Positions 8,174 to 64,000 of a stretch of DNA of 64,000 nucleotides are shown piece after piece (position 1 is the first letter of the stretch; each line of letters starts with the position of its first letter). Position numbers and translations under genes: made by a program. The notes beneath the pieces are model-generated. The model saw only the letters and a program-made list of their open reading frames with translations. It ran no database searches and was not told the origin of the DNA. This DNA comes from Pelotomaculum isophthalicicum JI (GTDB lineage: Bacteria > Bacillota > Desulfotomaculia > Desulfotomaculales > Pelotomaculaceae), in contig NZ_JAKOAV010000002.1 of assembly GCF_029478095.1 (NCBI RefSeq), positions 1-64,000 of the forward strand, written 5' to 3'.

Positions 8174-8821
8174 TCAGCGGGGCTTCCGGCTTTTAGCAAG
8201 CCTATTTAATATAAAGCGTACGATAATGTCCTGCTGCCTGTTGGTGATATTGGTAAATTCCACCGCCGCGCTGATCGCGGTGGCGCTTATTTTACCAGAA
8301 CGCACCACTTTGCCGGAAACAGCGATTTCTTCTGATTTATCGCCCAGCAGCAGATTAAATTTCATCAGTAAAGCGGTACCGGCCTCGTATATGTTTTTTA
8401 CCAGCATTCTGACACCGCCGCCGCTGATGTCCTGCACGGAAGATTTAATATACCGCGGGCTTTCACCTTCTTTTGGCACCTCAGCGTAAAAAATGTCCAT
8501 GATAACAGGCAGCCTTACAAACTTGCGATCCTGAACGCGGTTATAGTCGTCCGGCCAGGATAAGGAATAGAGCGGTATGTTGTCTACCCGCCGCCCGAGC
8601 ATAGCGCTTATAAATTCAATTCTTGCCCCCTGCAAAACAATATTTACAATTACCCGGTCACCCTTGCTCAGGATTAACGGGTTGGCTTTCTGGTAGGGTA
8701 TGGTTATGTAAAATTTCCCTTTTTGGACATCCTGGATATTTGAGTCAAACCAGTCCGGTTCTTTCATGTCGCGGGATACCCTGATGCTCTGATTTATCTT
8801 TATCCACTGCTCAACCGTCAT
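8174..8821 (-). CDS. PilZ-domain c-di-GMP receptor (YcgR-like)
   Basis: 215 residues. The N-terminal 90 residues resemble the YcgR2/PilZN beta-barrel (FYITIPYQKANPLILSKGDRV). The PilZ motifs are in place: RKFVRLPV (RxxxR) near residue 100 and a D/NxSxxG-type DISGGGVRM near 130. PilZ proteins bind c-di-GMP and, in this architecture, usually brake flagellar rotation. The gene sits just downstream of an HD-GYP gene on the same strand, 52 bases away, so c-di-GMP breakdown and sensing may be co-transcribed. Confidence 0.85.
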   Translation of the reverse strand: MTVEQWIKINQSIRVSRDMKEPDWFDSNIQDVQKGKFYITIPYQKANPLILSKGDRVIVNIVLQGARIEFISAMLGRRVDNIPLYSLSWPDDYNRVQDRKFVRLPVIMDIFYAEVPKEGESPRYIKSSVQDISGGGVRMLVKNIYEAGTALLMKFNLLLGDKSEEIAVSGKVVRSGKISATAISAAVEFTNITNRQQDIIVRFILNRLAKSRKPR

Positions 8822-8873: not shown

Positions 8874-9983
8874 TCAACTAGGAGAAAAGCCTTTCCACCG
8901 GCTTGCCTCCTCACCATGCAACACCCTGACAATAAAGAGTCCCTTCTCTTTATATAAAGGCAATTCAATTTGCTTGGGCAACAGCCGTTTTTTTTCATCA
9001 AAATAAACATGAACCATGGGAAAAAGCGAATTACCTTTTGGTGTATCGGCCGCTACGCCAGCCATGCCGTTATTCAGCTCAACGATAGTGCCGGCGGGGT
9101 AAGCGGCAATGTTATACATAAACGCCTTTGCGACAGATTCCTTGACAAAATAGTTAACCGAAGCCTCACACATTTCGTAAGCTTCGACAGGGGGGAAAGC
9201 CTTCCGGTAAACCCTGTTCGCGGTTATCGCGTCGAACCTGTCGGCAATGGCCACGATCTGGGCATATTCGTTAATTTGCTCGTCCTTTAGTCCCTTGGGA
9301 TAGCCTGAACCGTCGTAGTTTTCATGGTGCTGAAGAGCCATTACAGCATTAATTTCATCCAGATTTCCCGCTTCACGGATTAGTTCATATCCAAAAACCG
9401 TATGTTTCTTCATAACTTCAAATTCCTCCGCGGTCAAGCCACCTGGTTTATTCAGGATTTTATCCGGTATTTTGACCTTGCCGAGGTCATGCAATAACGC
9501 CCCTACACCAAGAAACGCCAGTTCGTTATGACCATATCCTAAAGTTATCCCGGTCATTAGCGTTAAAATGCATACATTTACTGAGTGCGCAAAAGTATAG
9601 TCATCTTGTGAACGCAAGTCAACCAGATTAAAAATCAAATTTTTATTGGATAAAAGCTGCTCGGTAAACTCCCCTACAGTGGTATAAAGCGATTGCGGCT
9701 CAATCACCAGCCGGCCGGATTCCTTTGCTTCCAGCAGGACATTCTTGATCTGGCGAACTGCCGCTACACGAGTTTGCCGCTTTATCACGTCATTTGCTTC
9801 AGGCATCTTAAAAGGTAATCCATCGTCCACCCAGACAAAAGGTAATTCCAGTTTGATTAACAGTTGAATATATGCGTCAGTAAGCGCAACACCGTTTTTT
9901 AACAGCTCTTCACCTCTGCTATTGTAAATAGTGCGGCTGAGTTTCATTCCCGGTTTGAGATCAGATACACCGACCTTGCGCAT
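8874..9983 (-). CDS. HD-GYP domain protein, probable c-di-GMP phosphodiesterase
   Basis: 369 residues. An N-terminal domain of about 120 residues (VGVSDLKPGMKLSRTIYNSRGEELL) has the shape common in clostridial HD-GYP proteins. The HD-GYP core follows: HSVNVCILT near 135, HDLGKVKIPDKIL near 165, KKHTVFGYEL near 192, and HHENYDGSGYPKGL near 217. All metal ligands appear present. The family hydrolyses c-di-GMP to pGpG or GMP. No signal peptide or membrane helix is seen, so it acts in the cytosol. It is probably co-transcribed with the PilZ gene. Confidence 0.88.
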   Translation of the reverse strand: MRKVGVSDLKPGMKLSRTIYNSRGEELLKNGVALTDAYIQLLIKLELPFVWVDDGLPFKMPEANDVIKRQTRVAAVRQIKNVLLEAKESGRLVIEPQSLYTTVGEFTEQLLSNKNLIFNLVDLRSQDDYTFAHSVNVCILTLMTGITLGYGHNELAFLGVGALLHDLGKVKIPDKILNKPGGLTAEEFEVMKKHTVFGYELIREAGNLDEINAVMALQHHENYDGSGYPKGLKDEQINEYAQIVAIADRFDAITANRVYRKAFPPVEAYEMCEASVNYFVKESVAKAFMYNIAAYPAGTIVELNNGMAGVAADTPKGNSLFPMVHVYFDEKKRLLPKQIELPLYKEKGLFIVRVLHGEEASRWKGFSPS

Positions 9984-29253: not shown

Positions 29254-30267
29254 TCATAGAATATCATTTCCTGAAACAACCTTTGTCAGCACTGCCGTGA
29301 TATCAGGCGGACCGCTTAGAATTAAAAGGTCTCCCGGCAGCAGAATCTCAGATGGCCGGGGATTGATGATATGCCGCTCCCCCCTTTTTATGGCCAGCAG
29401 GGTGGCATCGTGATTTTCCCGCAGGCGTGATTCTCTCAACTCCTTTCCCGCAAGCGGCGATGTTTCGTTTAATACCAATTCACCCAATTCGAGGCCGACT
29501 TCGTCAACCAGCGATTGCATAAAAGTAACGCTAGCCGGTTTCAACAAAGTCATAGCCATCCAATTACCTGCCATAATTGAAGGACATATAACAGTTTCCG
29601 CTCCGACTTTTTTCATTCTGGCGATGGACTCTATCCGGTCGGCGCGTGCTACCACCCTGGCGGCAGGATTCAAGTCTTTGCAGGTAATCACAATCATTAA
29701 ATTAGCGGCGTCATCGGCAAGAGTGGTGATAACCCCGCCGGCCCGCTCCAACCCGGCCGCTAAAAGCACCCGCTCCTCTGTAGCGTTGTCACTAATAAAT
29801 AAAATATTTTCAGTATGGCCAAGCTTTGTCAACTCCTGCAACCTGTCTTGATCTTTCTCAATTACTACAAAGTCCTGTTTATCTTCCAGGAGTTCACTTA
29901 TTACCGCCAAACCCACCCGGCCCGCGCCGCATACGATAATATGGTTTTTTAATCCGTTTATTTTCTTAGTCATTTTTCTCTTCCCCCAGACATCTTTAAT
30001 ATGTCCTTCCACTATACCGCCGAAAATTGTGCTGTAAAGATAAGTAAAAAGACCTATCCCGCCGATCACCAGCACCATAACGATCAAACGGCCGCCTACG
30101 GTTTTAGGCACAATATCACCGAACCCAACTGTTGATATGCTGATAATGGAAAGCCAAAAGGCGTCAATAAAGGACATGTCTTCAATCTTCATCAGGCTGA
30201 GAATCACAACACCCAAAACCGTTACCAGCACAACAAAAGCATAGATAATTGATCGTAACGATATCAA
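29254..30267 (-). CDS. Potassium channel with RCK (TrkA-N/TrkA-C) domains
   Basis: About 337 residues. Two membrane helices flank a pore loop whose filter reads ISTVGFGD. A Rossmann RCK domain (HIIVCGAGRVGLAVISELLE) and a TrkA-C domain follow. This is the MthK/YugO-type two-helix K+ channel gated by nucleotide or Ca2+. GAGAGGAG lies nine bases before the TTG at 30267. A longer in-frame ATG at 30366 overlaps an intergenic hairpin and is unlikely. Confidence 0.85.
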   Translation of the reverse strand: MISLRSIIYAFVVLVTVLGVVILSLMKIEDMSFIDAFWLSIISISTVGFGDIVPKTVGGRLIVMVLVIGGIGLFTYLYSTIFGGIVEGHIKDVWGKRKMTKKINGLKNHIIVCGAGRVGLAVISELLEDKQDFVVIEKDQDRLQELTKLGHTENILFISDNATEERVLLAAGLERAGGVITTLADDAANLMIVITCKDLNPAARVVARADRIESIARMKKVGAETVICPSIMAGNWMAMTLLKPASVTFMQSLVDEVGLELGELVLNETSPLAGKELRESRLRENHDATLLAIKRGERHIINPRPSEILLPGDLLILSGPPDITAVLTKVVSGNDIL

Positions 30268-30364
30268 AAAAAAACTCCTCTCAGGCACTCGAATATTAAT
30301 AAATTCTACACCATCATGCGGATTCCTTGCTTGTTTCCTGCATATAGGGACAAAAGACCTAGAC

Positions 30365-30401
30365 ATGGGACGAAGGTCCCGCCTTAGGACCTTCGTCCCA
30401 T
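30365..30401. repeat. 15-bp perfect inverted repeat (GGGACGAAGGTCC type)
   Basis: ATGGGACGAAGGTCC and GGACCTTCGTCCCAT pair perfectly around a 7-base loop, in the gap between the divergent K+ channel and riboswitch-regulator units. No T-tract is attached, so it looks more like a dispersed palindrome than a terminator. Confidence 0.6.
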
Positions 30402-30431
30402 TTACAATCGTTAGGGCTCATTTTATAATAC

Positions 30432-30526
30432 ATTCAATAATGAAGAAAAAGCCAAACCTGTTGAAAGACTGAGACGTAAAGTTCCTGGTCTAAGGCTATA
30501 GCAATGATGACCGAACTACCGTGAAT
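30432..30526 (+). ncRNA. Predicted c-di-GMP-I (GEMM) riboswitch
   Basis: The class-I pattern is followed in order: GCCAAACC, a GAAA tetraloop region, GAGACGTAAAG, GGTCTAAGG, and finally GACCGAACTACCG. AGTTC pairs with GAACT and GGTC with GACC. The last bases, CCGTGAA, can also pair with TTCACGG inside the following terminator. Ligand binding would therefore favour termination, so I predict an OFF switch. It lies 140 bases upstream of a Spo0F-like regulator gene. Confidence 0.78.
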
Positions 30527-30540
30527 ATTACTTAAATACG

Positions 30541-30573
30541 TAACCACCTTATTTCACGGCAAGGTGGTTTTTT
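30541..30573 (+). terminator. Riboswitch-controlled terminator
   Basis: AACCACCTT and AAGGTGGTT pair, followed by TTTTTT. The loop contains TTCACGG, which is complementary to CCGTGAA at the 3' end of the riboswitch and provides the competing antiterminator. Confidence 0.8.
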
Positions 30574-30666
30574 TATCTCCGACAATACAGACAGGCATCG
30601 AGGAAAGACCCTATTATAAGCCACAGATATCTTTACGGATAAAACTGCATAGGTGGGATATAGATC

Positions 30667-31065
30667 ATGAAACAAAATGCCCATTATCTTCTTATCGTTG
30701 ATGACAATAAAGGGATCTGTGCTCTATTACACGAGTTATTCAGTGAAGAGGGTTATGTGGTTGAAACCGCTTCCAGCGGTGAGGAGGGGCTTCGGAAAGT
30801 CCGCGCGGGAAGGCCGGCATTAATCCTACTGGATATTAAAATGCCGGGCATGAACGGCATCGAGACCCTGGAAGAAATCGGGAAGCTGGCGCCGGAGGTG
30901 CCGGTAGTACTGATGACGGCATATACGGAACTGGACACAGTATTAAAGGAAAAAAAGAAAAACCCTAAACAATACTACATTGCAAAACCTTTTGAACTAG
31001 AAGATATCAGCCATCTAGTCAGGGGGATCTTGTTAAAAAAAGAAGAAAAAAAGAATGCGCTTTAA
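30667..31065 (+). CDS. Spo0F-like single-domain response regulator
   Basis: 132 residues, receiver domain only. Acidic pair VDDN near 11, phospho-acceptor in LILLDIKMPGMNGIETL near 58, Thr in LMTAYTELDTV and Lys in IAKPFELEDI. GMNGIETL and MTAYTELD strongly recall Spo0F, the middle carrier of the sporulation phosphorelay. Phosphate would come from orphan PAS kinases like the two in this window. A predicted c-di-GMP riboswitch with terminator precedes it, tying its synthesis to the second messenger. Whether it serves the relay or another pathway is not settled by sequence. Confidence 0.75.
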   Translation: MKQNAHYLLIVDDNKGICALLHELFSEEGYVVETASSGEEGLRKVRAGRPALILLDIKMPGMNGIETLEEIGKLAPEVPVVLMTAYTELDTVLKEKKKNPKQYYIAKPFELEDISHLVRGILLKKEEKKNAL

Positions 31066-63665: not shown

Positions 63666-64000
63666 GTTTCAATTCCTCATAGGCAGGCTAAACACTTTCG
63701 GATAACAAAAGCACGACCTTTACTTACTCCGTGTTTCAATTCCTCATAGGCAGACTAAAAACGTTAAATATTTTTTCGCTTCTTTTGTTTGCTCTGGAGT
63801 GTTTCAATTCCTCATAGGCAGACTAAAAACCCGCCAAATAAACGCGCGTTACATAAGGATATGGGGTTTCAATTCCTCATAGGCAGACTAAAAACTCAGT
63901 TTGTTGGTTATGGTATCTCCTATTTATACCAGTTTCAATTCCTCATAGGCAGACTAAAAACTCAGAGCGGGAGAAGGAGGAATGGTAAATGTTTAGGTTT
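63666..64000 (-). CRISPR. CRISPR array with 30-bp repeat, running off the window
   Basis: Repeats at 63666-63695, 63733-63762, 63801-63830, 63866-63895 and 63932-63961. The consensus begins GTTTCAATTCCTCATAGGCA and ends GACTAAAAAC. The first copy has two changes; the other four are the same. Spacers are 37, 38, 35 and 36 bases. A fifth spacer of 35 bases (63962-63996) is followed by GTTT at the window edge, so the array continues. The transcribed strand ends ATTGAAAC, as in type I-B/I-A/III systems. The changed first copy marks the leader-distal end, so leader and any cas genes should lie to the right, outside the window. Confidence 0.96.

Follow-up and report, generated by a model that had tools for sequence, protein, structure and literature searches.

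A degenerate c-di-GMP-I leader before a second, relocated Spo0F in Pelotomaculum isophthalicicum: probably an OFF switch in decay or strongly weakened

The window analysed here (64,000 nucleotides of Pelotomaculum isophthalicicum JI, forward strand) contains a leader with the layout of a c-di-GMP riboswitch, followed by the gene for a Spo0F-like receiver. A first-pass annotation had proposed that high c-di-GMP stops transcription of this gene, linking the motile/sessile signal to the sporulation phosphorelay. Does the leader still respond to c-di-GMP, and is the gene a Spo0F? On the sequence evidence described below, we lean towards reading the leader as a c-di-GMP OFF switch that is in decay or strongly weakened; the gene behind it is a second, relocated Spo0F. 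The features of the locus (window coordinates) are as follows.

About 30347-30360, plus strand: third palindrome, imperfect (the palindrome region spans 30347-30399).
30367-30380 and 30386-30399, plus strand: two palindromes, GGAC-N4-GTCC, directly 5' of the promoter.
30401-30429, plus strand: predicted sigma-70-type promoter, TTTACA-17-TATAAT, read by eye.
30441-30523, plus strand: c-di-GMP-I (RF01051) aptamer, degenerate (Rfam match of 51.5 bits).
30452 and 30477 (ends), plus strand: the G21-C46 pair (model positions 12 and 37, next to the ligand), a C.U mismatch in the alignment.
30510, plus strand: the equivalent of Vc2 G83 (model position 74, by spacing), an A in the alignment.
30519-30525, plus strand: antiterminator 5' arm, CCGTGAA, starting at the aptamer C92 position.
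30542-30574, plus strand: intrinsic terminator, with arms at 30542-30550 (AACCACCTT) and 30561-30569 (AAGGTGGTT), then a T run.
30553-30559, plus strand: antiterminator 3' arm, TTCACGG, inside the terminator loop.
30651-30656, plus strand: probable ribosome binding site, AGGTGG, read by eye 10 nt before the ATG.
30667-31065, plus strand: lone receiver of 132 aa, a relocated Spo0F paralog (Response_reg match, Spo0F structures and tree).

The covariance-model search bore out the riboswitch family named in the first-pass annotation (RF01051, 30441-30523, plus strand, 51.5 bits; gathering score 35; E 3.7e-07 for a 64 kb search). The match is the weakest of the 12 to RF01051 in its own genome. The corresponding leader and receiver gene are present in the sister species Pelotomaculum terephthalicicum (strain JT; L013/L252), where the leader scored 47.3 bits, also above the cut-off. 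For comparison, 128 matches from 24 genomes were reduced to 118 aligned aptamers by setting aside one match that fell short of the cut-off and nine that came from another genome of the same species. The bit score was lower than that of the window in 11 of the 118; the locus was tested after its low score had been noticed, and the rank alone is weak evidence.

Model positions were converted to Vc2 numbering by the tetraloop (32-35 in PMC3764141; model 23-26), with model 11 as G20, 12 as G21, 37 as C46 and 38 as A47; G11 and A38 are consistent with the Bc1 numbering given in PMC11218506. The equivalents of G83 (model 74) and C92 (model 83) were set by conserved letters and spacing. The G21-C46 pair is G-C in 115 of the 118 aptamers and C.U only in the window, which is the sole member with C at G21, the sole member with U at C46 and the only one without both bases of the pair. 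At the G83 position, G was found in 113 of 118, A in three (the window included) and a gap in two; C44 is kept in the window, and the interhelical C44-G83 pair is lost. This is a Watson-Crick pair between helices (PMC3764141, PMC4744006), called universally conserved in PMC4744006. Three of the eight P2 pairs are broken (G21-C46 and two further), the most among the 118, and one of the ten P3 pairs; the GAAA tetraloop is present. The P3 pairs 42-79 and 43-78, usually C-G, are U-A in the window, and these two-sided changes suggest that the helix was held for some time.

The ligand contacts G20, A47 and C92 are all kept in the window (G, A, C). The sister reads G, C and U at these positions, with A47 and C92 lost; it alone among the 118 has C at A47, and the C92 position is C in 111/118. 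Vc1 no longer captured c-di-GMP in vitro after a single change of A47 to U or of C92 to G, and for changes at A47 and C92 in vitro binding and in vivo expression were out of step (PMC4744006). With its own pairs enforced, the window aptamer had a predicted fold of +1.1 kcal/mol, the least stable of the 118 (median -22.4), and the sister, at -7.6 kcal/mol, was second least stable; these energies omit tertiary contacts and depend on our own alignment. The aptamer stretch folded no better than chance (z -0.31; 72 of 200 shuffles as good). The earlier description of the aptamer core as present was too generous, several core positions being altered; this degeneracy, read from the alignment, had been missed. 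Core sites are also altered in three other aptamer copies in the same genome, L009 (A48), L010 (G20 and C46) and L011 (A47), so worn copies are not confined to the window locus.

A truncated class I aptamer was also seen by eye at G000:C33 near 35040 (L267), behind a GGAC-N4-GTCC palindrome. It has a P2 part with GGCAAAC and TACGCAAAGCCACG and no P3, and looks like another relic riboswitch in the same genome. The cGAMP-type class I riboswitches are marked by an A at the G20 position. A cGAMP-type aptamer was rejected for the window, where this position is G. An A occurs there in 10 of the 118 aptamers: L008 and L010 in the same genome, and L173, L179, L191, L194, L198, L207, L236 and L239.

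The full terminator and the complementary antiterminator (CCGTGAA with TTCACGG) described in the first-pass annotation were both found. Taken as separate stretches and compared with shuffles, the terminator hairpin folds at -10.8 kcal/mol (z -3.4) and the antiterminator at -8.3 kcal/mol (z -2.7). The complementarity between the aptamer 3' end and the terminator loop was equalled in one of 1000 letter shuffles of the aptamer 3' end. Taken as a whole, the leader showed no folding beyond chance (z -1.56, equalled in 15 of 200 shuffles), and its minimum-energy fold, in which the 5' end pairs with the terminator 3' arm, was for that reason not used. The antiterminator starts on position 30519, which is also the C92 position, so the bound aptamer and the antiterminator would compete for bases. 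The 3' arms of the antiterminator and the terminator lie one base apart, that of the antiterminator being transcribed earlier, so these two helices should not coexist. By this anatomy the antiterminator, which shares bases with the bound aptamer, and the terminator are predicted to be mutually exclusive. Because the antiterminator starts at the ligand-contacting C92, high c-di-GMP probably turned the ancestral switch OFF, the direction given in the first-pass annotation.

A usable terminator-like hairpin follows 57 of the 118 aptamers; nine of the 57 have a loop partner of the antiterminator kind, and six of these nine are of the window-type design. The same platform stands behind six better-kept aptamers: L004 (C14:80435) in the same genome, whose aptamer has one core change (C22 to U), and L171, L176, L178, L288 and L289, the aptamers of the last two being read by eye. 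The antiterminator has seven pairs in the window, nine in the sister and 9-10 in the six better-kept leaders (wobbles included). Read pair by pair, six of these eight members have U-A as the fourth terminator pair; the sister has U-G there and the window C-G. Covariation in the antiterminator is weak, with one two-sided pair, a level reached by 162 of 500 shuffles; the sequence is nearly invariant.

Constraint was compared between the two species. By downstream DNA, six of the 12 loci in the P. isophthalicicum genome have a counterpart in the sister genome (G001) and the other six have none. Aptamer identity is 56/83 at the window locus vs 394/444 in the five other ortholog pairs, one of which (L003/L186) rests on a short downstream match only (Fisher p 4.5e-6; the Fisher tests treat bases as independent, and this comparison was chosen after the low score had been noticed). 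The downstream DNA of the six pairs is about 71-91% identical where aligned; that of the window locus, in two pieces, is 82% and 75%, which does not mark the locus overall as fast-evolving. Conservation of the aptamer does not exceed that of the untranslated spacer after the terminator (51/82, p 0.52). At this locus, known in two species only, 29 of 32 positions of the terminator and antiterminator arms are identical, vs 52 of 78 in the part of the aptamer that lies outside the shared arm (p 0.009). Both promoter hexamers are unchanged in the sister (12/12), with 9/17 in the 17-nt spacer. Since the hexamers are unchanged, the arms kept and the aptamer as variable as the spacer, promoter and platform appear to be held while the sensor drifts.

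From the position of the promoter, transcription would start near 30436. Positions 30432-30435 therefore probably lie outside the RNA, and the leader annotated at 30432-30667 is real but would begin slightly later. The RNA 5' end falls just before the aptamer, and a clear P1 is absent (by eye). The palindromes at 30347-30399 likely form an operator; the sister has three at the corresponding place upstream of its promoter. The GGAC-N4-GTCC motif lies within 80 nt upstream of 13 of the 118 c-di-GMP-I aptamers, which include orthologs and are not all independent, and of 4 of 1007 control chunks. Carriers include the window (30367-30399), L002, L003, L164, L171, L176, L186 and L252, and by eye the motif is present as well in two other families of the order (L288 and L289). 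Against an operator, a longer pattern with up to two mismatches gave 15 matches in the same genome vs 9 for the reversed control, and some of 10 matches inspected precede no riboswitch or fall inside a gene. A terminator reading of the inverted repeat at 30367-30399 was set aside: the sister palindromes lack the perfect 13-base inverted repeat (by eye), and an identical palindrome precedes other c-di-GMP-I promoters.

Three further observations concern the surroundings. The distribution of GGAC-N4-GTCC points to an unnamed regulator that may share a regulon with c-di-GMP riboswitches. Next to the leader, the divergently oriented K+ channel gene (window 29254-30366) appears, by eye, to survive only as a short remnant in the sister (L013, about 2100-2130). 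CRISPR repeats of family CRISPR-DR2 occur at 63733-63961, with four copies before the window ends.

A different motif, TGTCGAA, the core of the Spo0A box, was found on either strand within 80 nt upstream of 6 of the 118 c-di-GMP-I aptamers and of 3 of 1007 control chunks. The carriers are L003, L186 and L187 (about 20 nt before the aptamer), and also L192, L196 and L234; in three carriers it lies between -35 and -10 (by eye). This suggests that some c-di-GMP riboswitch transcripts are under Spo0A control.

The best solved-structure matches of the receiver are Spo0F, and the residues aligned to these structures are DD, the D of LLDIKMPG, the T of MTAY and the K of KPF. As judged from these matches, the product is a lone receiver with the conserved phosphorylation residues of a Spo0F. 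Its closest relatives are canonical Spo0F proteins, mostly linked to fba, a linkage treated as a mark of Spo0F in PMC6136694. In the tree it groups with the fba-linked Spo0F of relatives; many forks are weak and the bootstrap had not settled. The Spo0F identity is supported more strongly than the first-pass annotation had claimed. Within the fetched stretches, fba was seen at 21 of 30 receiver loci, most of them from relatives; the window and the sister are among the nine without it, some of which lie on cut contigs. The window gene is not beside fbaA, transaldolase or CTP synthase; its neighbours are the K+ channel gene and another receiver. Its genome holds two relocated copies, the window gene and one at C7:96487 (59% identical); these and their counterparts group at 94/83, inside a six-copy clade without fba at 97/98. 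A canonical fba-linked spo0F was sought in this genome and not found, with no receiver match within 1.5 kb of the fba locus (G000:C7:19569-20474, L283). A third receiver (C8:64503, 39%) was rejected as a Spo0F candidate; it sits on a long branch and, by eye, beside tsaE/tsaB-like genes.

The kinase-specificity residues, given as QGILEVD in PMC6136694, read N G I L E L E in the window gene under our own mapping onto the structure-match alignment. The genome also has a Spo0B-like gene between rpmA and obg (neighbours named by eye). An in vitro phosphorelay is reported for Desulfotomaculum acetoxidans in PMC6136694, so a relay may plausibly operate here as well. The 59%-identical copy means that the window Spo0F is not the sole candidate for the phosphorelay step. 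The PilZ/YcgR (8174-8821) and HD (8874-9983) domains cited in the first-pass annotation as signs of c-di-GMP use were confirmed.

RF01051 was found at two of 20 receiver loci scanned (L013 and L094), which are one locus, and among the genomes searched this receiver with its leader occurs in two genomes of the genus only. No copy of the window receiver was present in the assembly of another P. isophthalicicum genome (64% complete). When the ORFs downstream of the 118 aptamers were searched with the receiver, in DNA mostly of about 1 kb and in some cases cut by contig ends, four matches were obtained (the window, the sister, a CheY-like gene and a receiver after L005), so c-di-GMP-I leaders before receivers are not unique to the window locus.

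On the reading that we favour, the leader descends from a type of c-di-GMP-I OFF riboswitch that recurs in Desulfotomaculales. With ligand, the bound aptamer would have held its own 3' end, C92 included, and the terminator would form; without ligand, the aptamer 3' end would pair with the terminator loop and allow read-through. Terminator and antiterminator were kept and core contacts of the aptamer lost in both carrier species, and because of these losses the response to c-di-GMP is probably gone or orders of magnitude weaker. In that case the promoter, together with its palindromic operator, and an unchanging degree of termination would chiefly determine how strongly the second Spo0F is expressed. 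Decay sits less easily with the facts that both copies pass the Rfam cut-off, that the window keeps G20, A47 and C92, and that P3 was held by two-sided changes. In addition, PMC9049102 quotes a value of 0.011 nM for wild-type class I binding, so even a large loss of affinity might leave useful binding.

A rather doubtful alternative is a working OFF switch, perhaps of low affinity, through which high c-di-GMP stops transcription of this Spo0F copy. The Rfam match, a platform common to better-kept aptamers in other genera, an antiterminator that starts at C92, the three kept contacts and a class I OFF precedent in C. difficile (PMC3649979) all fit it. The core losses in both species, the least stable fold of the 118, the relaxed constraint and the sister's loss of A47 and C92 count against it. 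The annotated control of transcription by high c-di-GMP thus agrees with the family, the platform and the OFF anatomy but is weakened by the core losses and the spacer-like drift. The fuller version, a low-affinity OFF switch under a palindromic-operator promoter that feeds c-di-GMP directly into the phosphorelay through the second Spo0F, we hold a little more doubtful still.

Adaptive core changes by which the aptamer moved to another ligand are very improbable. Altered class I pockets are known from the cGAMP-type aptamers, and constrained platform arms beside a changing pocket would suit such a move; the two species, however, changed different pocket positions and show no common new pocket, and P2 is damaged too, which a change of ligand does not need. 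Least probable of all is a plain bistable attenuator or chance pair of hairpins with no riboswitch history. The degenerate aptamer and a whole leader that folds no better than shuffles are what it would predict, but two orthologous Rfam matches above the cut-off and a near-identical platform behind six better-kept aptamers had already told against it.

If the leader is a dying switch, as we favour, it offers a clean comparative case: the platform survived in both sister species, each of which lost different parts of the ligand pocket, and the P. isophthalicicum genome has a better-preserved example of this design at another locus. It would also be a warning that a covariance-model match above the cut-off does not show ligand sensing by a riboswitch. 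A working switch would mean that RNA carries the c-di-GMP signal to the phosphorelay, a new junction between the motile/sessile decision and sporulation; in the portions of the literature covered by our search, no description was found of a c-di-GMP riboswitch before spo0F or of an RNA link between c-di-GMP and the phosphorelay. A separate pointer to an unnamed regulator is the combination of GGAC-N4-GTCC, c-di-GMP-I aptamer and loop antiterminator, which occurs in three families of the order.

Compared with RF01051 (GEMM-I), the window is alike in model score, GAAA tetraloop, CUAA receptor region and the letters at G20, A47 and C92; it differs in lacking G21-C46, C44-G83, two further P2 pairs and a clear P1 (by eye), whereas the sister lacks A47 and C92. 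It shares the loop antiterminator and has a similar terminator stem with L004, L171, L176, L178, L288 and L289, four of which (L171, L176, L288 and L289) also have GGAC-N4-GTCC upstream, but their aptamers are better kept. The class I riboswitch Cdi1_3 of C. difficile (flgB), as described in PMC3649979, likewise has an aptamer followed by premature termination, with OFF logic; it was shown experimentally to work and controls flagella, whereas the window leader precedes a receiver. The Spo0F of Desulfotomaculum acetoxidans, in the account of the Peptococcaceae phosphorelay in PMC6136694, is alike in its single receiver domain and, by sequence, in its protein family; the window gene differs in not lying beside fba, in being one of two copies in its genome and in having N rather than Q after the acidic pair.
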